DNA from: Methylomicrobium sp.
GTDB taxonomy: Bacteria; Pseudomonadota; Gammaproteobacteria; Methylococcales; Methylomonadaceae
Direction of reading: 5' to 3'
DNA: 64,000 nucleotides
Assembly (NCBI GenBank): GCA_018333785.1
Contig: JAGXSU010000136.1
Span: 1 to 64,000 of the forward strand
Shown here one piece after another: positions 1,845 through 21,917 of the stretch. The notes under the pieces were generated by a model. The model saw only the letters and a program-made list of their open reading frames with translations, was not told the origin of the DNA and did no database searches. Within the stretch, counting starts at the first letter, position 1. The number at the start of each line of letters is the position of its first letter. A program made the translations under genes and the position numbers.

Positions 1845-3474
1845 ACTTGAAACCCGCCAACTGCTTCTTAATCTCCATTTCCAACTCCCGAGACTGAGCA
1901 AATAAACTGTCCAAATTTTCAGTAAAACCTTTCATTTTGGCGGCAAACTCTTCAGGCGTAATATCAACATACTCAATCTTCACATCAAAATACTGACCGG
2001 CACTGAGCGAGTAATTCTTGGCGACGATTTCGTCGTAACCAAGCACCACCGAAAAATCCTCTTCCGCCTGCTTGGCATTAAACACGTCGATAATGCGCTG
2101 CTCTTCTTCCGAGCTGAGCACCGTTTTCTGGTTTTTGCCCTCTTTAACTTTCTGCCCCAGATTGGAAGCGTCGATCAACACGACTTTATCTTTATTGCCG
2201 GCGTCAATAAACAGAATGGAAACATTGGTACCGGTAGTCGCGAAGATATTACTGGGCATGGACACCACACCGGCCAGCATCTGGTGTTCGACCAGATGCC
2301 GACGAATACCTTTGTCGATGCCGGCTTGGGCAGTGATAAAGCCGGTCGGCACCACCACGGCCGCTTTGCCACCTGTATTAAGCGAGTAAATGATGTGCTG
2401 CAGGAACAATTGGTAAATTTCCATCTTGTCCGTGGCTTTGGCTTTGACCTTGGGTATGCCGGCAAAGAAGCGCTGCTGGTTGGCCTTGGTATCCAACTCG
2501 TCGCGGTAATCGCTGAAATCCAGCTTGAAGGGCGGGTTGGAAACGATGTAATCGAAACGTTTTAGCTCGCTGCCGTCCTTATGGTAAGGATGCAGCAAGG
2601 TGTTGCCCTGGATCACATGCGGAATGGAGTGCACCAGGTTATTAAGAATCAGGTTCAGGCGTAACAAATTGGAAGATTTTTGCGAGATATCCTGAGTGTA
2701 TATGCTGCAGCGGTTTTCGCCGATGGCGTGGGCCACATTCATCAGCAGCGTGCCGGAACCGGCGGAAGGATCGTAAACGCTGACGTTTTTGATCTGACCT
2801 TGCTGGGCTTTGGGCACCTGAATTTCCGCCATGATCCGCGCCACCGCATGCGGAGTAAAATATTCGGCATACTTGCCGCCGCTGTTGCTGTTGTAGTCCT
2901 TGATCAGGTATTCGAAGATCGTGGCGTAGAAGTCAAACTTCTGGGTGAAGATACGCTCGAAACTAAATTCCACCAGTTTGTTGATAATTGCGCGACAAAA
3001 ATTATCACGTTTGGAATCGTCGGCGATATAGTTACTGAGCCGATCGAACAGCACTACCTTGGCGCCGCCGTCGGTTTTGACCGCGAACACGTCATTGTTG
3101 CTAATGGCAATGTCCAACAGGGTATCGTCAAACAGCTTGGCGAAATCCGGCGCGTTTTGTTGGCTGAACAGGTAATTGATGAAATGGCTGGGTTTCAGGC
3201 GCGCGGTATCTGTGTCACCCAAGCGTCTTAGCAGTTTTTGGTACGCTTCCTCGGTAAGCTCGCTAAGCGCCACTTCCCAGTTTTGTGCTTCAGCGATAGC
3301 TGGCATTACTTTCTTTGCTTCAAAGGCAAATTTATCGTTCAGAAATTTGTACAGAAAGGTCTGGGTAATAATTTTAAATTCGTTACCATCGTTGCCTAAA
3401 CCGTACGCCGCGCAAATATTCTTGAGAGCATCAATCAGTTCTTTGGTTTTTTGTTGAAATTGCTGTTCTACCAT
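1837..3474 (-). CDS. hsdM: Type I restriction-modification DNA methyltransferase HsdM
   Basis: This is the adenine-N6 methyltransferase subunit, which protects host DNA and forms the core of the restriction complex. It has 545 residues, a normal length for the family. An N-terminal helical HsdM domain is followed by YFTP (about 205-208), the S-adenosylmethionine motif DPSAGSGT (about 235-242) and the catalytic NPPF motif (313-316), the last typical of N6-adenine methylases. Its start overlaps the hsdR end by 7 bases and its stop overlaps hsdS by 8, so the three genes are translationally coupled. All key motifs are intact, so the enzyme is probably active. Confidence 0.95.
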   Translation of the reverse strand: MVEQQFQQKTKELIDALKNICAAYGLGNDGNEFKIITQTFLYKFLNDKFAFEAKKVMPAIAEAQNWEVALSELTEEAYQKLLRRLGDTDTARLKPSHFINYLFSQQNAPDFAKLFDDTLLDIAISNNDVFAVKTDGGAKVVLFDRLSNYIADDSKRDNFCRAIINKLVEFSFERIFTQKFDFYATIFEYLIKDYNSNSGGKYAEYFTPHAVARIMAEIQVPKAQQGQIKNVSVYDPSAGSGTLLMNVAHAIGENRCSIYTQDISQKSSNLLRLNLILNNLVHSIPHVIQGNTLLHPYHKDGSELKRFDYIVSNPPFKLDFSDYRDELDTKANQQRFFAGIPKVKAKATDKMEIYQLFLQHIIYSLNTGGKAAVVVPTGFITAQAGIDKGIRRHLVEHQMLAGVVSMPSNIFATTGTNVSILFIDAGNKDKVVLIDASNLGQKVKEGKNQKTVLSSEEEQRIIDVFNAKQAEEDFSVVLGYDEIVAKNYSLSAGQYFDVKIEYVDITPEEFAAKMKGFTENLDSLFAQSRELEMEIKKQLAGFKYE

Positions 3475-6400
3475 GCTCTGTTTCCAGTTGTGAATTCGTT
3501 TACATACTCTGCTATCACGAGGTTAGTTAGGTAGTCACCTGCGTCGATAGATAAATTCATGGCATGATCGTCTTCGAAAATAGCAAAGACTTTTGCTCCA
3601 ACGTTACGAAAAAAATAATCTTGATTTTCTACTACTTGTGTATTTTTAAGCACTAATTCATCAGTTGAGTTTTTGACATCAGTTAAAGCGGCGAATAAAT
3701 TTCTTTCTGAATTGGAAATACAGAGCTCATTCAATCGCTTATGGATCCGAGTGTATTTAGCATCGCCGTGGTATTTCTGCCGCAGTTGGTTGTTCTGACG
3801 GTTCAGTTCTATGATGCGCTCATGGATTTTGTTCAACGCATCAATGTTGGCATTCATATCATCCTGCGTCACTTCGGAGAGGTTCTTTTTCTTGAACAGC
3901 CGCTCCAGTTCTTCCTTCAAGGTGACGAACTTAGGATCTTGCTGGTCGATATTGCTGGCCAGCGCTTCGCGGGTGCGGCGCAAGGTGTTTTTCAGCTTGT
4001 CGGCCAATACCAGCTCTTCTTCGCCGATTTTGATGAACTTGAAGATCACCTCTTCCAGCGCTACGTTCAGCAGATTAGTGGTGTCCGTGCCTTGTTCAAG
4101 AGTTTCCTTGAGATTGAGTAAATCCAAGTGGTTGCTCGTTTCCCGGTAGAGTTGATTGAGTTTTTGAAAATCCAGCGTTTCCAAAAAGCCGTATTCACCC
4201 TGCAAGCGGATCAGGTTGTACAGACTTTTGGCATCGGCCAAGGCTTTTTTCAAAGCCAGTACGGTTTCACGATCATGGATTTCATTGAGCTGCCGGGAAA
4301 ACACTTCGGCGTTTTCGATATCGAAACGGAACAATACATCCTTGATGTATTCGATTTCGGTAGCAATTTCTTCCCGGGATTTGAACAAGTGGGAGTAATG
4401 CTCCATCTCGTCGCCGAGTTCGGCTTGCAATTCGTCGAAATAGGCTTTGTTGGTAGCATCGAACTCCTTACTGATGTCGGCAAAGTCCACAACGTAGCCG
4501 TAGCGAAAGTCTTTGTAGGTGCGATTGACCCGCGTCAAGGCTTGTAAAAGGTTGTGTTTGCGTATTACACGTCCCAGGTAGAGTTTCTTCAGGCGCTTGG
4601 CATCAAAGCCTGTCAGCAGCATGTTATACACGAATAAGAAGTCGATCTTGCCCGCCTTGAAGTCTTCCACCCAGACCTTGCGTTCTTCCTTGCTGCCAAC
4701 ATCGTGCAGAATCAAAGCTGCCGATCTGACTTTGTTGTCTTGTTTGTGTTTGACACGATAAATGCCCGTCTCTTCTGCCGCCAGTTTTAGCCTGGTAAAT
4801 TTCGGGTCATTGGCAGCTGCTTCTGCCGAAATAGGGCCTTTTGCGTATTGGGCATTGAATAGCTCGAACAATTGCCGAGCTTGTTCTGCACTGTCGCAAA
4901 TCACCATACCACCGATACTGGCATCATTTAAAGCGCCCCGGCTTTTTTCGAAGTCGGTAACGATGTAATCGAGCATTGGTTCAACGAAAGCGGGATGGGC
5001 GTAAACCAGTTTCCTGTCAACGTCGCCTTGCAATACTTCCGCTTCCGCCAGCGCCTGTTGCAGGGCAATTTTATAGTGGGTGGCAATCTCTTCCCGAATC
5101 AATCGCAAGGTGTAACCGTCGGCAATCGAGGCGTTGTAGTAATACTTGTGAATGTAGTCGCCGAACAAGGTGCGCGAGTTGTAATCGTCGCCCAGCAGCG
5201 GTGTGCCCGTCAGGCCTATTTTGACCGCATTGCGATCGGACTGATCCAGATTGGCCAGGAAGCTGCCTTTAGGATTGTAGCTGCGGTGTACTTCGTCCAG
5301 AAAGTAAACCCGCTGAATGGTTACGTCGTAATCCTGAGTCGAAACCACATCCGGGTCATCCTTGAATTTTTGAATATTGACGACTGTAATTTCAGGCTTG
5401 CCGGAATGGTTGTGAATGACTTGTGTCGCTTTGATGTCCCGGCTGAAGGCTTCGCGCGAGTTGATGGTATGCACGGTCAAACCGCGACTGGTAAATTCCC
5501 GGTGCGCTTGTGTCAGCAGATCAATCCGATCGACGATGAAATAGAACTTGGGAACGATTTGCTTTTGTTGAAAGTAATCAGTCAAAAAACGCACATTGAA
5601 GTAGGCCAAAGCTGTTTTACCGCTGCCTTGGGTGTGCCAAATGATGCCTTTTTTAATCCCGTCGTTAAGTTTACGCTCGATGGCTTTGGTGGCGAATAAC
5701 TGCGGGTAACGCATGACGTGTTTGTGTACGCCTTCGTTTTCATGCGCATAGACCAAGGCATAGCGCAGCATGAAAGCCAGTCGCTCACGGCTTAGCAACG
5801 AGGTGCAAATGCGATTGGTCGGCCGGTTGGGGTCTTTGTTGGTGATAAATTCGGGATTACTGTGGATGACTTCAAGGTTATTGTCTTTCAAGACGTTGAG
5901 TTCCATCTCGTCTGAGATGGGCTTGAGCAATGCTGTTAAGTTCAACTGTTCTTCTTCGCGGAAGTAGTTGAATTTGGCCTTCTGATAAGAAGGAGTGGCA
6001 TAAAATGCACCCTGAACCGGTAGGACATCGGCGTCGTCATACTCCATGTTGTTGGAGAAGATCATCAACTGGGTGATGTTTGCAAAGCGTTTGAATTTAG
6101 GGTTTTGGAACCGTTTATTGATACGGCCTCGTTCCGCCACTATACCTTCACGGTTATTTGGTTTTTTAACCTCAATGAATACCAAAGGCATGCCGTTGAT
6201 TAGCAAGGTGATGTCAGGTCGAAACTCTTCATCACCGTTTTGGTAGGTCAGTTCGGTCACGACATGAAAGTCATTGTTGTTGAAGTTCTCGAAGTCGATC
6301 AGCCTGATACCGGAACGGTCCGTAAGCTTGTTGTAGAAAGTTTGACCAAGATCATCGTTGTCTAAAGCGAGTTTCACATCTACCCACATACGATCAACAT

Positions 6401-6572
6401 CGGCATCGGCTACGCCAGGATTGATCTTGCTGATTGCGGATTTAAACAAATCGGGAAAGAGGTTGGATTCCAAATCCCATCGCTGTTCCTTCAGCGATAA
6501 GTATTGGTACCCGAGGCGAACCAAATGCATGATGACTGGAATCTTGACGCGCGTATCTTCAGTGAACTTCAT
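3468..6572 (-). CDS. hsdR: Type I restriction endonuclease subunit HsdR
   Basis: This is the motor and nuclease subunit of the type I system; it translocates DNA using ATP and cuts at a distance from unmethylated sites. At 1034 residues it is of usual length. A PD-(D/E)XK-type nuclease core is visible near the N-terminus (D120, then E134-V-K136), followed by superfamily-2 helicase motifs: Walker A TQGSGKT (314-320), DEVH (426-429) and GLTGTP (453-458). The C-terminus is rich in charged helices. An AAGGA ribosome-binding site lies about 5 bases before the ATG. It is first in the hsdRMS operon. The sequence looks intact. Confidence 0.95.
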   Translation of the reverse strand: MKFTEDTRVKIPVIMHLVRLGYQYLSLKEQRWDLESNLFPDLFKSAISKINPGVADADVDRMWVDVKLALDNDDLGQTFYNKLTDRSGIRLIDFENFNNNDFHVVTELTYQNGDEEFRPDITLLINGMPLVFIEVKKPNNREGIVAERGRINKRFQNPKFKRFANITQLMIFSNNMEYDDADVLPVQGAFYATPSYQKAKFNYFREEEQLNLTALLKPISDEMELNVLKDNNLEVIHSNPEFITNKDPNRPTNRICTSLLSRERLAFMLRYALVYAHENEGVHKHVMRYPQLFATKAIERKLNDGIKKGIIWHTQGSGKTALAYFNVRFLTDYFQQKQIVPKFYFIVDRIDLLTQAHREFTSRGLTVHTINSREAFSRDIKATQVIHNHSGKPEITVVNIQKFKDDPDVVSTQDYDVTIQRVYFLDEVHRSYNPKGSFLANLDQSDRNAVKIGLTGTPLLGDDYNSRTLFGDYIHKYYYNASIADGYTLRLIREEIATHYKIALQQALAEAEVLQGDVDRKLVYAHPAFVEPMLDYIVTDFEKSRGALNDASIGGMVICDSAEQARQLFELFNAQYAKGPISAEAAANDPKFTRLKLAAEETGIYRVKHKQDNKVRSAALILHDVGSKEERKVWVEDFKAGKIDFLFVYNMLLTGFDAKRLKKLYLGRVIRKHNLLQALTRVNRTYKDFRYGYVVDFADISKEFDATNKAYFDELQAELGDEMEHYSHLFKSREEIATEIEYIKDVLFRFDIENAEVFSRQLNEIHDRETVLALKKALADAKSLYNLIRLQGEYGFLETLDFQKLNQLYRETSNHLDLLNLKETLEQGTDTTNLLNVALEEVIFKFIKIGEEELVLADKLKNTLRRTREALASNIDQQDPKFVTLKEELERLFKKKNLSEVTQDDMNANIDALNKIHERIIELNRQNNQLRQKYHGDAKYTRIHKRLNELCISNSERNLFAALTDVKNSTDELVLKNTQVVENQDYFFRNVGAKVFAIFEDDHAMNLSIDAGDYLTNLVIAEYVNEFTTGNRAW

Positions 6573-11348: not shown

Positions 11349-11458
11349 ATTCTTAAAATATTTTATTATTACTATTAAACCATTGAATTTCTGTTAATAA
11401 TCTCATATTATCTTTTATAATCAATAGTTTACGTAACTTTATAAGTTGTATAAAACCC

Positions 11459-11467
11459 TGTGGATAA
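11459..11467 (-). promoter_or_regulatory. DnaA box in the dnaA-dnaN gap
   Basis: TGTGGATAA is the complement of TTATCCACA, a perfect high-affinity DnaA box. It is the only perfect box I see in the 187-bp gap between dnaA and dnaN (11349-11535), which is otherwise AT-rich. A lone box suits control of dnaN/recF/gyrB transcription or DnaA titration better than an origin. Confidence 0.65.
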
Positions 11468-11535
11468 GCACTTAGCAAACAATGGTAAAAAATCAATGCC
11501 TTTTTAAATCACAAATAATCACAGCATGTTCACAG

Positions 11536-13014: not shown

Positions 13015-13149
13015 ATGAAAAGAACTTATCAACCCAGTAAAATCAAACGTGCAAGAACTCATGGTTTTCGTGCAAGAATGGCAACAAGAGGCGGTCGTAA
13101 AGTGCTCAACGCTCGCAGAGCGAAAGGCCGTGTAAAATTGTCTGTCTAG
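13015..13149 (+). CDS. rpmH: 50S ribosomal protein L34
   Basis: A 44-residue, highly basic protein of the large ribosomal subunit, starting [14 protein letters not shown] and ending GRVKLSV, which matches L34 along its whole length. It was found by reading the sequence directly. The upstream GGATTC may serve as a weak ribosome-binding site. It is the first gene of rpmH-rnpA-yidD-yidC-mnmE and has a strong promoter at 12930-12959. Confidence 0.98.
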
Positions 13150-13152
13150 TCT

Positions 13153-13518
13153 TTGAATAAGATATTAAGTTTCCCTCCCTATTTAAGGTTAAGGAAGCCA
13201 GCGGAATATAAAAAGGTATTTGCCAATCCTGTTAAGTCAAGCGATAGCTATTTTACGCTACTAGCAATAAGCAATCTCACGGATAGCCCAAGGCTTGGTT
13301 TGGCAATTGCTAAAAAAAACATTAAGCGGGCTGTAGATAGAAACAGACTTAAAAGAACAGTTCGCGAGAGCTTTAGAATGCAACAGCATAAGTTATCCAA
13401 TATCGACATAGTTGTTTTAGCACGAAAAAGTGCGGTTGATGTTTCTCCGGATGTATTGAGAAAATCATTGGAAAAACATTGGCTTAGGTTGGTAAACCGA
13501 TGCGAATCTTGCTCATAG
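13153..13518 (+). CDS. rnpA: Ribonuclease P protein component
   Basis: RnpA is the protein cofactor of RNase P, which trims the 5' ends of tRNA precursors. The 121-residue product has the basic RNR signature ([13 protein letters not shown], about 61-73) and the N-terminal [11 protein letters not shown] segment. The best start is TTG at 13153, three bases after the rpmH stop; no ATG lies near the conserved N-terminus. It overlaps yidD by 19 bases, so translation is likely coupled. Confidence 0.94.
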
Positions 13519-13733
13519 CAGTCATAAAGTTTTATAAATACTTTATAAGTCCTTTGCTAGGGAATAGCTGTCGTTTTCATCCAAGCTGTTCAAGTTATGC
13601 TTTAGAAGCGCTTCATATGCATGGCGCGGCCAAAGGCTCCTATCTTACGATCAGAAGATTACTCAGATGTCACCCTTTCCATGAGGGTGGATTTGACCCA
13701 GTTCCAAAAATTTTTGGTAAAAAAAATGGATAA
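13500..13733 (+). CDS. yidD: Membrane protein insertion efficiency factor YidD
   Basis: YidD is a small membrane-associated protein that assists YidC-dependent insertion. The 77 residues show the family core: an amphipathic start (about 1-20), then [15 protein letters not shown] and the [12 protein letters not shown] segment. It overlaps rnpA by 19 bases and yidC by 8, in the standard order. Confidence 0.95.
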
Positions 13734-15429
13734 CATAAGATTTATACTGATTGTCATTTTTGCAATGATAAGTTATATGCTTTGGCAAGCATGGCAAATT
13801 GACTACGGTCCAAAGCCAGCTATAGCTATCTCTGATCAGCCTGAAGTAGCAACTAAGGGTGATTTACCAGCAACAGTAGATTCAACTGATTTGTCACAAA
13901 CTCAAGAGAGAAGCGACGTAAACACACCTGCAGCCTCTGTTTCTACTGCCGGACAAATCATTAAAGTAAAAACGGATGTATTGGCACTTGAGATCAATAC
14001 TCAAGGCGGAACTTTACAAAATCTTGATTTAGTTAATTATCCCTTAGAAAAATACAATACTGTTGTTCAAGGAATTAGAGAAACATTTGGATTGTCACCT
14101 TCTGTAAAAGACACCACCCCTATTCGTCTTTTCAATACAGATAAAGAAAAATTATTTCTGGCGCAAAGTGGGTTGATTGCCGAAAACAGTACTTTAAGTG
14201 CTGCCAATCACCATAGCGTGTTCACGGCCGAAAAGAATAATTATGAACTGACTGATGGGCAAGACACTATTGAAGTTCCTCTGACATGGACTGACAGTAA
14301 AGGCTTGATCGTGACAAAGACTCTGGTATTCAAAAGAGGCAGTTACGAAATAAGCTTACTTCAAAACGTAAAAAATAATGGCACCACTTCCTGGTCTGGT
14401 CGGCAATACAGCCAGTTATTGAGAACCCCTTATTCAGATGCATCTGCTAACACTTTCATAAGGACTTATGCTGGTGGTGTTGTTTATACAGAAGAGGATA
14501 AGTATCAAAAAGTCGACTTCGACGACATTGCTAAAGAAAATTTAGAGATCAAAACTTTAGGCGGTTGGAGCGCTATGATTCAGCACTATTTTGCTGCCGC
14601 TTGGGTACCCCCTAAAGATGAGGAAAATAATTTTTATACCAAAGACCTTAAAGATTTTCGTTATGTCATAGGCTCTTACTCGCCAATTAAAACAGTTGAA
14701 CCTAATCAGCAAGTTGAATTTGCGGCACAATTGTTTGCCGGTCCTAAAATTCAACCTATGTTAGAGAAAGTTGCTACGGGTCTTGAGCTAACGGTTGATT
14801 ATGGCTGGCTGACGGTGGTAGCTAAACCTATTTACTGGTTATTGAACCAAATCTACGGGTTTACCGCTAACTGGGGTTTTGCAATTATCGGCGTAACACT
14901 TACTATTAAATTACTGTTTTTTAAATTGTCACAGGCCAGTTTTATTTCCATGGCCAAAATGCGCAAAATCCAACCTCGATTGAAAGAACTTCAAGAGAGA
15001 TTTGCTGATGACAGGCAGCGGTTTAACAAAGAAATGATGGATTTATACAAGCGCGAAAAAGTGAATCCATTGGGCGGTTGTTTGCCCATTCTTGTTCAAA
15101 TACCGGTATTCATTTCGTTATATTGGGTATTAGTCGAAACGGTTGAACTCCGCCAAGCTCCTTTCGCATTGTGGTTGCAGGACTTATCTGCACAAGATCC
15201 GTTTTATATTTTGCCAATTTTAATGGGTATCACGATGAAGATTCAGCAAAGTTTGAATCCAGCTCCGATTGATCCATTACAGGCAAAAATTATAAAGATG
15301 TTTCCACTTGTATTTACAGTATTTTTCCTCTTCTTCCCCTCTGGATTGGTAATGTACTGGGTCGTTAACAATACGTTATCTATCATTCAACAATGGTACA
15401 TAACCAAAGGAATAGAAGAAGCCAAGTAA
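13726..15429 (+). CDS. yidC: Membrane protein insertase YidC
   Basis: YidC inserts and folds inner-membrane proteins, alone or with SecYEG. The ATG at 13726 ([17 protein letters not shown]) was chosen because it gives a 567-residue protein of normal length with an N-terminal membrane anchor and overlaps the yidD stop (ATGGATAA). A large periplasmic domain (about 65-340) is followed by the conserved insertase core with five membrane segments, including [18 protein letters not shown]. In-frame upstream codons lie inside yidD and encode unrelated sequence. Confidence 0.96.
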
Positions 15430-15435
15430 GAGTGT

Positions 15436-16782
15436 GTGGATATTATAACTGTTGATACCATTGCAGCAATTGCTACACCGCCAGGTAACGGCGGTGTAGG
15501 CATCATTAGAGTATCAGGCTCTGATGTCACAAAAATAGCCCAACAAATTATCAACAGGCCCCTAAAGGCCAGATTTGCGCTTTTCACAACCTTTAGTGAT
15601 CAAGACGGATCCATCATTGATTCGGGTATCACTCTGTATTTCCCCGCCCCGGCCTCGTATACAGGCGAAGACGTTTTAGAACTTCAAGCTCACGGCGGCT
15701 CAATAATTTTAGATATTTTGCTAAAAAGAGTTTTATCGCTTGGTGCCCGTATGGCGAGGCCCGGTGAATTCACTGAACGCGCATTTTTAAACAATAAAAT
15801 TGATCTGGCGCAAGCTGAAGCCGTTGCTGATTTGATTGAAAGCAGCACAGAGCAATCAGCGCGTTCAGCACAGAAATCCTTACAAGGATTATTTTCCAGC
15901 CAGATTAACGAAATGGTTGACCAACTGACTGAGTTGAGAGCCTATGTAGAAGCCGCCATCGATTTTGTTGATGAAGAGATAGATTTTCTATCAGACGGTA
16001 TGGTGGAAAATAAGATTGAGAATATAGCCAGTCAAATTCAAACCATATTGACTACAGCTTATCAAGGAAGGCTATTAAGAGACGGTTATACGATAGTATT
16101 AGCAGGAAAGCCAAATGCGGGTAAATCCAGCTTATTGAATGCCTTAGCAGGCCACGATGCTGCAATAGTGACTGACATTGCCGGTACGACACGTGACGTA
16201 TTGAGAGAGAAAATCCAAATTGATGGTATGCCGTTACATATCATCGATACTGCCGGTTTAAGAGAAAGCGATAATCCCGTCGAAAAAGAAGGCATACGAA
16301 GAGCTCATGAAGAAATCAGAAAAGCCGATGAGATATTACTTTTGATTGACGTAAAAGATCCCGAACATCAATCGATATTAACCAGCTTTTCATCTGATGC
16401 CCACATCACAAAAATTTATAACAAAATTGATCTGATAGGCATTGATCCTGAAATTAATCAATCCACACAAGGCACACAGATTTATCTATCCCTTAGAACA
16501 GGTCAAGGAATGGAGTTATTGAAGCAACACTTAAAGGAAAGCGCCGGTTTTAAAGGCAATAATGAAAATGTATTTATAGCAAGAAGAAGGCATATAGAAG
16601 CCTTGCAAAAAAGTTTAAATTTTGTGCAGTCCGCTTTAATGCAATTAAAAACCAGCAAAGCAGGTGAATTAGTCGCGGAAGACCTAAAGCTGGCTCAACA
16701 GGGGCTTACTGAGATAACCGGGGAATTTAGTTCTGATGACCTATTAGGGAAGATATTTTCAAGCTTCTGTATAGGAAAGTAA
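15436..16782 (+). CDS. mnmE: tRNA uridine-5-carboxymethylaminomethyl(34) synthesis GTPase MnmE
   Basis: MnmE works with MnmG to modify U34 in the wobble position of several tRNAs. The 448-residue protein has the N-terminal folate-binding domain with TPPGNGGVGIIRVSG, helical domain, and an inserted G domain with G1 GKPNAGKS (224-231), G3 DTAG (271-274) and G4 NKID (329-332). It ends with the conserved CIGK (445-448) holding the catalytic cysteine. The start is GTG at 15436, six bases after yidC. A strong terminator follows. mnmG, rsmG and parAB do not follow here. Confidence 0.97.
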   Translation: MDIITVDTIAAIATPPGNGGVGIIRVSGSDVTKIAQQIINRPLKARFALFTTFSDQDGSIIDSGITLYFPAPASYTGEDVLELQAHGGSIILDILLKRVLSLGARMARPGEFTERAFLNNKIDLAQAEAVADLIESSTEQSARSAQKSLQGLFSSQINEMVDQLTELRAYVEAAIDFVDEEIDFLSDGMVENKIENIASQIQTILTTAYQGRLLRDGYTIVLAGKPNAGKSSLLNALAGHDAAIVTDIAGTTRDVLREKIQIDGMPLHIIDTAGLRESDNPVEKEGIRRAHEEIRKADEILLLIDVKDPEHQSILTSFSSDAHITKIYNKIDLIGIDPEINQSTQGTQIYLSLRTGQGMELLKQHLKESAGFKGNNENVFIARRRHIEALQKSLNFVQSALMQLKTSKAGELVAEDLKLAQQGLTEITGEFSSDDLLGKIFSSFCIGK

Positions 16783-19207: not shown

Positions 19208-20554
19208 CTAGTCTCGTAAATTTTGCCCGCCTTGATAAAAAGATGTTTCTTCATACTTGCTATTGAAAAGCATAAATGTCACTGACGTTAACAACATCAG
19301 TGCGGTGAAAAACCAAAAATAGTTTGCACCTTCCAAATAATTGCTCACGCTGTCATTACTGATAAAAAAATTAACGGCGCTAGTAAATAGATTACCTACG
19401 GCGATAGAGAGTGAATAAAAAGCCATAATAAAAGATTTCATGGAATTTGGTGCCTGTGTGTAAGAAAACTCCAAACAGGTAACCGATACCATTACCTCTG
19501 CTGCGGTCAGTAAGCAATAGCCCAATAATTGCCACGCGATTGAGGGCTGCAAACCAGTATCAATCAGCATTTGCAGTATTGCAGGAATTGCGAATGCACC
19601 CGTTGTTAAAAAAAGCCCTATCTTGATTTTGGTCATGGCAGAAAAATGAATGAAACGTCCCATGAAGGGGTAGAGGTAATAGTTGAAAAGCGGTACCAGA
19701 ATCATGATTAATAATGGATTAGCCGCCTGGATTTGGGACGGTAACAACTCTATCCCCAGAAGATGGCGATCCATTTTTTGGGCTTGCAGCACCCAGGAAG
19801 ATCCAATCTGCTCGAATAAAGCCCAAAACACTGCGATAAATAAATAGACCGGAACCAGCTTGAAAAGTGTTTTACGGCCTTGAGTACTAAAAACGTCCTT
19901 TAAAAAAGAAACCCCGGCTGGAGGAACATGGGCGAACCGGAATCGGCCTGACCAAAAGATGACAGTTGCCGCTCCCATCACAATACCGGGTAGACCAAAG
20001 GCCCATGATGGTCCATAGGTTTTCAATAACCACGGGATTATCAGCATCGAAGCAAAAGCGCCCAGGTTAATGGAAAAATAAAACCATCCGAATGCTTTAT
20101 TAATCAAATGGCCATTGCTTGAGCTGAATTGATCTCCTACATGCGCTGAAACACAAGGTTTTATTCCTCCCGCACCTATAGCAATCAATCCCTGACCCAG
20201 TAGCATTCCAAATAGCGTGTGATCAAAAGCCAACGCCAAGTGCCCAAAACAATAAACAACTGACAAAAAAAGAATTGTTCGATATTTCCCCAACAGGCCA
20301 TCCGCCAACACAGCTCCTAAAAGTGGCATGAAATAAACAGCCGATACAAACAAATGAAAATAAGCTTGAGCCTCCTGTTCACTCAATACATCAAGTTGAC
20401 CGGATGCATCTAGCAAATATTGCGTCATGAACACAACCAGAATGGCTCGCATTCCGTAGTAACTGAATCGCTCAGCCGCTTCATTGGCAATGATATAAGG
20501 AATTCCCGATGGCATTGTCCTTATGGATTCGGGTTTTATTAAATAGTTAGCCAT
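19208..20554 (-). CDS. POT/PTR family proton-coupled peptide transporter
   Basis: A 448-residue inner-membrane protein of the proton-dependent oligopeptide transporter family. The family motifs are clear: ERFSYYGMRAILVVFMTQYL in the first helix (E29 region; the ExxER proton motif appears only as NEAAERF), GGIKPCVSAHVGDQF, and FYFSINLGAFAS (the FYxxINxG motif). About 12 hydrophobic segments are present. It is transcribed away from the candidate oriC region and is divergent from the moxR operon. Substrates are likely di- or tripeptides. Confidence 0.9.
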   Translation of the reverse strand: MANYLIKPESIRTMPSGIPYIIANEAAERFSYYGMRAILVVFMTQYLLDASGQLDVLSEQEAQAYFHLFVSAVYFMPLLGAVLADGLLGKYRTILFLSVVYCFGHLALAFDHTLFGMLLGQGLIAIGAGGIKPCVSAHVGDQFSSSNGHLINKAFGWFYFSINLGAFASMLIIPWLLKTYGPSWAFGLPGIVMGAATVIFWSGRFRFAHVPPAGVSFLKDVFSTQGRKTLFKLVPVYLFIAVFWALFEQIGSSWVLQAQKMDRHLLGIELLPSQIQAANPLLIMILVPLFNYYLYPFMGRFIHFSAMTKIKIGLFLTTGAFAIPAILQMLIDTGLQPSIAWQLLGYCLLTAAEVMVSVTCLEFSYTQAPNSMKSFIMAFYSLSIAVGNLFTSAVNFFISNDSVSNYLEGANYFWFFTALMLLTSVTFMLFNSKYEETSFYQGGQNLRD

Positions 20555-20639
20555 GAAAATGTCACCGTTTGGCGTGATTTGTCTTTTCTAATAACAATAA
20601 CACTATGAAATCTTTTAAAGAACTTATTACTATTAGCAA

Positions 20640-20810
20640 CCGCTTTTTCTGTGTATAAGCACTTTTAGCTTATTTCTATCAACGCATTAGATGTTCTCAT
20701 AACCTGTTGGTGAAAACTGTTTTATATGTGACTGGATTGTGGATAACAAAAAATTTAAAACTTATACACAGTTGTCAACAGGAATGAACACCTGTTACCC
20801 ACAAAGTTAC
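20640..20810. other. Candidate oriC: DnaA-box cluster in AT-rich DNA
   Basis: The 382-bp gap 20555-20936 holds three perfect TTATNCACA boxes: TGTGTATAA (20650-20658, minus), TGTGGATAA (20738-20746, minus) and TTATACACA (20762-20770, plus). A one-mismatch TTACCCACA lies at 20795-20803. The inner pair flank a very AT-rich tract, AACAAAAAATTTAAAA. The dnaA-rpmH gap has no such cluster and the dnaA-dnaN gap has one box. Gene orientation flips from minus to plus here. dnaA and a DnaA-box-rich origin separated by mnmE recalls the enteric layout. No experiment or GC-skew curve supports it yet. Confidence 0.72.
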
Positions 20811-20936
20811 TCGCTATCGATGAAACCTGCATACCGTTAAAATAATGAACCTTTAAGCCGTTTTATGGTATATCGTTGGCGGGATAGAAGACCGCAAACT
20901 GACTGTGCCGGATTAAACAATTGGATAACGTGGAAT

Positions 20937-21917
20937 ATGACTGAGGAAAATACAAATCAAGCAGCGTTGCTAAAACTCAAGCACTTTATTAACCAGGAGA
21001 TTATTGGTCAGGAAGTCTTGGTTGAAAGAATGTTGATTGCCTTGCTGGCTGATGGTCACATATTGGTCGAAGGTGCGCCGGGTTTGGCAAAAACCAGAGC
21101 CATAAATGTATTGAGTCGAGGGGTTGAAGGCGATTTTCACCGTGTTCAATTTACACCTGATTTATTACCTGCCGATTTGACAGGTACAGAAATTTACCGG
21201 CCACAGCAAGGTACATTTGAATTTCAAAGAGGTCCGTTATTTCATAACTTAATTTTGGCCGATGAGATCAACCGAGCACCCGCCAAAGTACAGGCTGCAT
21301 TGCTTGAAGCAATGGCTGAACGGCAGATTACGGTGGGTGGTGCAACCTATGCGTTGCCTTCATTATTCATGGTGATGGCAACTCAAAATCCTATTGAACA
21401 GGAAGGCACTTATCCTTTGCCTGAAGCACAGCTGGATAGATTTTTGTTGCATATCAAAATTGATTATCCACAGTCCGAGCATGAAAAAAGTATTCTGCAT
21501 TTAGCTAGAAAAGAGGCGGGTCAAGCGCTGGATGCTAAAAAATCAGCCATCCAACCGGTAACCCAACAGATACTATTTCAGGCGCGCAAGGAAGTGCTTG
21601 ATATTTTCATGGCTGATAATCTTGAAGACTATTTATTACAAATTGTTTTGGCTACCCGTAATCCGGGTGTTTATGGCAGTGATTTGGCGGGATGGCTGCA
21701 GTATGGCGCCAGTCCTAGGGCAAGCATTGCACTGGATCGTTGCGCAAGAGCTAAAGCTTGGCTTGATCAGCGGGATTTTGTGGGCCCTGAGGATATTCAG
21801 GACATTGCTTTCGATGTTTTACGCCACCGGCTTATTCTGTCTTATGAAGCCGAAGCTGAAGGCATTACAGCCGATCATATCATTAAAGAATTGATCGCCA
21901 GAATTGCTGTACCGTAA
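20937..21917 (+). CDS. MoxR-family AAA+ ATPase
   Basis: A 326-residue AAA+ protein with Walker A GAPGLAKT (about 42-49), Walker B LILADEIN and the sensor region MATQNP. MoxR ATPases act as chaperones for the vWA-domain partners encoded just downstream. I chose ATG 20937 (MTEENTNQ) because the family aligns from there; the 24 upstream codons of the frame look non-homologous and run into the candidate oriC spacer. It begins a six-gene operon; its stop overlaps the next start by one base (TAATG). Confidence 0.93.
   Translation: MTEENTNQAALLKLKHFINQEIIGQEVLVERMLIALLADGHILVEGAPGLAKTRAINVLSRGVEGDFHRVQFTPDLLPADLTGTEIYRPQQGTFEFQRGPLFHNLILADEINRAPAKVQAALLEAMAERQITVGGATYALPSLFMVMATQNPIEQEGTYPLPEAQLDRFLLHIKIDYPQSEHEKSILHLARKEAGQALDAKKSAIQPVTQQILFQARKEVLDIFMADNLEDYLLQIVLATRNPGVYGSDLAGWLQYGASPRASIALDRCARAKAWLDQRDFVGPEDIQDIAFDVLRHRLILSYEAEAEGITADHIIKELIARIAVP

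Follow-up and report, generated by a model that had tools for sequence, protein, structure and literature searches.

The intergenic region between a gene for a POT-family peptide transporter and moxR (the POT-moxR gap) very probably represents, as judged by its sequence elements, a real chromosomal replication origin (oriC) at a new address, paired with a weak module of the same kind. It was examined in a window of 64,000 nucleotides, the whole stretch of DNA that was analysed. The preferred reading, to which a probability of roughly 0.72 is given, is that the POT-moxR gap is the main oriC, and that the gap between dnaA and dnaN holds a second, weaker copy, which would be a former or auxiliary origin site. 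The elements upstream of moxR, their spacing and their conservation are described below, and fit the position at which the GC skew switches. An earlier note on this DNA had put forward the POT-moxR gap as a candidate oriC displaced from dnaA. The candidate was borne out in silico by the anatomy of the gap, its conservation, a profile search and GC skew. Displacement was upheld insofar as the strong module lies at moxR; however, a second module lies by dnaA and the two coexist, and hence the origin is not simply displaced.

Anatomy of the POT-moxR gap

The left neighbour of the gap is presumably a member of the POT family, as judged by its translated sequence and general knowledge, and the names moxR, DUF58 and VWA for the genes on the right are likewise assignments that we take from sequence and general knowledge. 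The open reading frame list starts moxR at an earlier ATG (20865), and orthologues of moxR were found in relatives. As the earlier note had stated, three perfect DnaA boxes and one near match lie in AT-rich DNA between these divergent genes (Table 1). Boxes 1 to 4 span 154 bp with 67% AT, and three perfect boxes within 155 bp were obtained in none of 1000 block-wise, composition-preserving Markov simulations of the window. The cluster, one of the features by which an oriC was judged, stands clearly above chance. Single near-match boxes occur in the window at chance level (69 found and 64 expected), so that only the cluster counts as evidence. A scan for box clusters, also suggested earlier, showed it to be the sole one of its kind genome-wide if a repeated IS-like sequence is set aside. 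In the window's genome, perfect boxes form an inverted pair here and in three copies of that repeat only; in a congener, G001, the pair occurs once.

Table 1. Features of the two origin-like regions of the window and of their neighbours.
Feature	Position	Strand	Remarks
dnaA-dnaN gap, second, weaker oriC-like module	11349..11535	.	profile match 11361-11449
DnaA-trios of second module, TAATAGTAATAATAA	11363..11377	-	14 bp from its R1-like site
R1-like site of second module, TTATTAACA, 1 mismatch to TTATNCACA	11392..11400	-	
IHF consensus of second module, AATCAATAGTTTA, exact	11419..11431	+	27 bp from its R1-like site
Perfect DnaA box of second module, TTATCCACA	11459..11467	-	
dnaA	11536..12852	-	dnaA of relatives found with TIGR00362
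rpmH-rnpA-yidC-mnmE	13016..16782	+	run towards proposed origin; yidC and mnmE with lagging-like synonymous skew
POT-family peptide transporter gene, left neighbour	19208..20554	-	leading-strand-like synonymous skew
POT-moxR intergenic region, proposed oriC	20555..20936	.	65% AT; profile match 20608-20781
AT-rich part of putative DUE, contains TCTTTTAAAG; consensus of relatives ATTTAAAA	20604..20623	-	from alignment of relatives; predicted function
DnaA-trios TAA-TAG-TAA-TAA, TAATAGTAATAA (plus strand TTATTACTATTA)	20624..20635	-	14 bp from box 1
DnaA box 1 (R1-like), TTATACACA	20650..20658	-	perfect, also in two congeners
IHF consensus WATCAANNNNTTR, exact, as TATCAACGCATTA	20677..20689	+	27 bp from start of box 1
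DnaA box 2, TTATCCACA	20738..20746	-	88 bp from box 1; 88-89 bp in most relatives
DnaA box 3, TTATACACA	20762..20770	+	inverted relative to box 2
DnaA box 4, near match TTACCCACA, 1 mismatch	20795..20803	+	not conserved in G002
moxR AAA+ ATPase gene, right neighbour	20937..21917	+	first gene of moxR-DUF58-VWA operon

From left to right, the gap comprises an AT-rich stretch, DnaA-trios, a 14-bp spacer, box 1, an IHF site, box 2 and the inverted box 3. The AT-rich unwinding element (DUE), predicted to melt, and the trios at the right distance from a box are conserved. Between the R1-like box and the next boxes, as in origins of the E. coli type, lies a candidate IHF-binding site, which has a counterpart, exact or nearly so, at the corresponding position in relatives and at which binding is predicted. 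The many GATC sites for Dam and SeqA that an E. coli-type origin would have are absent from the gap.

The basal unwinding system consists of a DnaA box, a spacer and DnaA-trios, with spacer lengths that peak at 10-13 bp and were searched up to a limit of 16 bp (PMC8287927); the spacer of the moxR module is inside this limit. As in this system, which is that of B. subtilis and many bacteria, a perfect box is found 14 bp from four trios with a central A. Unlike it, the moxR module has a single clear box by the trios rather than a tandem pair, and this strong copy is not adjacent to dnaA.

If the POT-moxR gap is the main oriC, DnaA would bind to boxes 1 to 3 and IHF would bend the DNA at 20677-20689. 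A DnaA filament would then extend leftward from box 1, over the spacer and onto the TAA/TAG trios, the AT-rich stretch at approximately 20604-20635 would melt, and DnaB would be loaded at the melted stretch, from which two forks would depart. The dnaA-dnaN copy, with its degenerate R1, would probably be subordinate.

The oriC of E. coli lies apart from dnaA, and rpmH-mnmE are located between dnaA and oriC and run towards the latter. The POT-moxR gap resembles this origin, which is of the mnmG-mioC type, in the order of DUE, minus-strand R1, IHF site and further boxes and in its separation from dnaA. In the window too, rpmH-mnmE lie between dnaA and the moxR gap and run towards the gap. The differences are in the neighbours, which are POT and moxR and not mnmG and mioC (mnmG of the window's genome is on another contig, and is 112 kb away in G001), in the absence of GATC and in the presence of a second module beside dnaN. 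Moreover, the DnaA-trios are clear here, whereas the trio score of E. coli is weak (PMC8287927).

The IS-like sequence is a 48-bp repeat that includes an inverted pair of perfect DnaA boxes, and its copies in the window's genome (G000) are at C68:17206-17253, C135:61-108 and C136:99174-99221 (L328). The L328 copy is downstream of a gene resembling an IS110-type transposase, and two copies were also found in G002. As judged by sequence, this may be an insertion element carrying DnaA boxes.

A second module in the dnaA-dnaN gap

The earlier claim that there are no boxes at dnaA is correct for the dnaA-rpmH gap, which was rejected as an origin because it has no boxes in the window, but not for the dnaA-dnaN gap, where a perfect box (at 11459) and a weak module are present. 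The two modules of the window lie 9.2 kb apart, share one orientation and agree in their trio-R1-IHF spacing (14 and 27 bp). In many relatives, the dnaA-dnaN gap is 182-190 bp long, with trios near position 158. The R1-like site of the second module is degenerate in the window's genus and in most relatives. Conservation between genera averages 0.90 for the R1-like site and 0.79 for the IHF site versus a background of 0.65, which is not what a dead relic would predict. When the conservation of R1, IHF and box 2 in the dnaA-dnaN gap was tested jointly, significance was not reached, with 2514 of 20000 random draws scoring as high, because box 2 shifts between genera; hence values are given per motif.

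Distribution of the module in related genomes

The trio/box/IHF layout upstream of moxR is common to about 15 related genomes, which include two congeners and members of other genera such as Methylobacter luteus and Candidatus Methylobacter oryzae. A module profile was trained on 11 modules, none of them from the window's genus. In a search of the whole genome, the best match was the moxR gap (20608-20781, 58.6 bits, E = 2.2e-15), and the only other match below 0.01 among those listed was the dnaA-dnaN gap (26.8 bits, E = 1.6e-5), both E-values being rough as calibration was shortened. In G015, G016 and G030, which are outside the training set, the strongest profile matches end 115-210 bp before the moxR match.

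In G028, G029, G009 and G085, the dnaA-dnaN gap is short and contains neither boxes nor trios, yet G028 and G029 have a second copy of the module at another locus. Copies at further loci were also found in Methylomonas koyamae, M. lenta and G008, and several genomes, e.g. G009 and G075, have one good match only. In a DnaA tree, in which some branches are long and the label 'dnaN' is unsure where the moxR locus is short or cut (e.g. G066), the moxR-gap state is clustered and at least 4 changes are needed. This is evidence, drawn from the placement of predicted origins, that the origin moved several times within the family.

A split or dual origin, in which the dnaA-dnaN and POT-moxR modules form one looped bipartite origin or both fire, is rather unlikely as an account of the window. 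The equal spacing and orientation of the two modules argue for it, as does the second copy in G028 and G029, which have lost the dnaA-dnaN module, and the conserved R1-like site suggests that the weak copy is maintained. The skew between the modules is also flat or shallow, both in the window and in G028. Where two matches occur on one contig, they are 0.26-40 kb apart and have the same orientation in 19 of 21 genomes; these are not independent events, however, since shared orientation is expected from tandem pairs and from synteny inherited by shared descent. Further points against such an origin are the degenerate R1-like site of the weak copy and the genomes with a single good match. Bipartite origins described so far extend up to about 2 kb and have one DUE (PMC4285127). 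Two DnaA-box regions near dnaA are present here as in the bipartite origins of B. subtilis and Helicobacter pylori (oriC1-dnaA-oriC2), but a separate trio and AT-rich stretch are present in each copy, and the distance between copies, 9.2 kb in the window and up to 40 kb in relatives, reaches tens of kb. Putative double origins, i.e. two origin-like regions per chromosome predicted from sequence, have been drawn from DoriC (Gao 2015; PMC4403523); unlike those, which are in other bacteria, the pair described here recurs over many genera of one family with equal internal spacing.

GC skew and direction of replication

The reading of the POT-moxR gap as main oriC was further assessed by GC skew. 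In the window, the cumulative minimum is at 20860 and a near-equal low is at about 12 kb. Choosing an origin by skew inside the window alone was abandoned, as its two minima, at about 12 kb and at 20.9 kb, lie too near each other for a choice. Given that the window's genome is a 201-contig draft, whole-chromosome skew was sampled, in 20-kb pieces, in the congener G001 (5.24-Mb contig). Skew in G001 is for the most part negative as far as about 1.03 Mb, is positive beyond about 1.06 Mb and reverts near 3.5 Mb, roughly opposite. On this contig, mnmG/parAB map to 0.918 Mb, the homologous gap to 1.0327 Mb and dnaA to 1.047 Mb. The region of the sign change (1.02-1.06 Mb) thus includes the gap, in agreement with the earlier expectation of a skew minimum there, together with dnaA, and does not include mnmG, which excludes mnmG and leaves dnaA and moxR unseparated; the cumulative minimum at 1.0478 Mb is nearer dnaA.

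In G029, which belongs to another genus, skew is positive from about 3.40 Mb on, and the moxR gap is at 3.4236 Mb and dnaA at 3.659 Mb, 235 kb off. In G028, where dnaA is 115 kb from the moxR gap, a local minimum at 1.554 Mb is 20 kb away from moxR (1.574 Mb) and 96 kb away from dnaA (1.458 Mb). Comparison with relatives, which the earlier note had offered as a check, places the switch in or close to the moxR gap rather than at dnaA. In both genomes, the local skew minimum is about 20 kb from the module, a point against the preferred reading. In G025, boxes are found in the dnaA-dnaN gap and skew flips at dnaA (1.28 Mb), while moxR is mid-arm at 0.27 Mb with no cluster in its gap, which indicates that boxes and skew move together. 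The skew of G009 is noisy and was left out of the evidence. The site therefore lies at the skew switch in G001, G029 and, roughly, G028 at a resolution of about 20 kb; modules 9-16 kb apart are not cleanly separated by skew, which counts against the preferred reading. The switch in gene strand bias described in the earlier note is present at the gap, but it is local: rpmH-rnpA-yidC-mnmE, to the left of the gap, are on the plus strand.

Genes lying between the modules were scored at their fourfold-degenerate sites, with the leading and lagging genes of G001 as reference. As judged by these sites, yidC and mnmE are lagging-like, and SDR and POT are leading-like. The lnLR for the moxR gap as the start is +2.57 in the window and +2.65 in G001 (including inserted genes), two values that are not independent and come from a weak test with a single-gene accuracy of 60-72%. 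Skew at synonymous sites lends mild support to the moxR copy as the start.

It is very unlikely that the dnaA-dnaN gap serves as the actual origin, with the POT-moxR gap as an accessory DnaA cluster. The former does have a perfect box, an IHF site and a trio at the common bacterial address by dnaA, the cumulative minimum of G001 is near dnaA, and the origin of G025 is there by skew. However, its profile score is 26.8 versus 58.6 bits and its R1 is degenerate, genes located between the two sites have a synonymous skew that speaks for the moxR gap, and the module is missing from G028 and G029, in which skew points to the vicinity of the moxR gap.

The sites datA and DARS, at which DnaA is titrated or reactivated, are intergenic and combine DnaA boxes with IHF, as does the POT-moxR gap. 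That the gap is a site of this kind, or a DnaA-regulated promoter, is nevertheless highly improbable, as trios and an AT-rich unwinding region beside R1 are features of an origin and the skew switch tracks the module in G029 and, loosely, in G028. An E. coli-type origin at the mnmG-parAB locus can practically be dismissed: these usual origin neighbours are together on contig C31, and the outgroups G039 and G055 have a profile match within about 2 kb of mnmG, but C31 has no module-profile or perfect-box match among the matches listed for the window's genome, and the skew of G001, still negative at and past mnmG (0.918 Mb), changes sign at a distance of more than 100 kb.

Two local deviations in gene content were recorded. 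A gene resembling a type I restriction subunit (HsdR) lies directly left of gyrB in the window (3468-6572); its skew is positive where that of the arm should be negative, and it was probably acquired recently. In G001 (C1, about 1037-1043 kb), smbp and mnmE are separated by several kb of genes that the window lacks, and one gene of this insertion between the modules has a strongly deviant skew.

Implications for origins in the family

A bacterial chromosome is generally assumed to have one origin that keeps its place. In this one family, the same module is found at dnaA-dnaN, at moxR and elsewhere, frequently as two copies on a chromosome, and the skew switch is near the stronger module where this could be checked. 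A tentative generalisation, itself doubtful, is that chromosomes of the methanotroph family carry two complete, equally oriented modules at distances of up to about 40 kb, which would cooperate or both fire, and that the spare module would let the main origin move repeatedly between dnaA-dnaN, moxR and other loci. The distribution of the module provides natural before-and-after cases of origin relocation, in which a role of the second module as spare, partner or relic becomes testable, and the POT-moxR gap is a practical oriC address for these methane oxidisers. Judged against the library that was searched, three points are new: the address at moxR, the repeated occurrence of module pairs within a single family, and the evidence for several moves of the origin. 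Papers on an oriC of Methylobacter, Methylomonas, Methylomicrobium or Methylococcales were sought with most subscription journals out of reach, and nothing relevant was found.

Other local arrangements of modules were seen in individual genomes. A single POT-moxR gap of G029 contains tandem origin modules (G029:C1:3422850-3423026 and 3423181-3423356). Tandem modules with equal spacing, one degenerate and one intact, were also found upstream of dnaN in Methylomonas koyamae (L336, 1014-1146 and 1412-1544), where dnaA is elsewhere. In G017, modules are present on both sides of dnaA (G017:C2:1305422-1305596 and 1307226-1307395), an arrangement like that of a classical bipartite origin.
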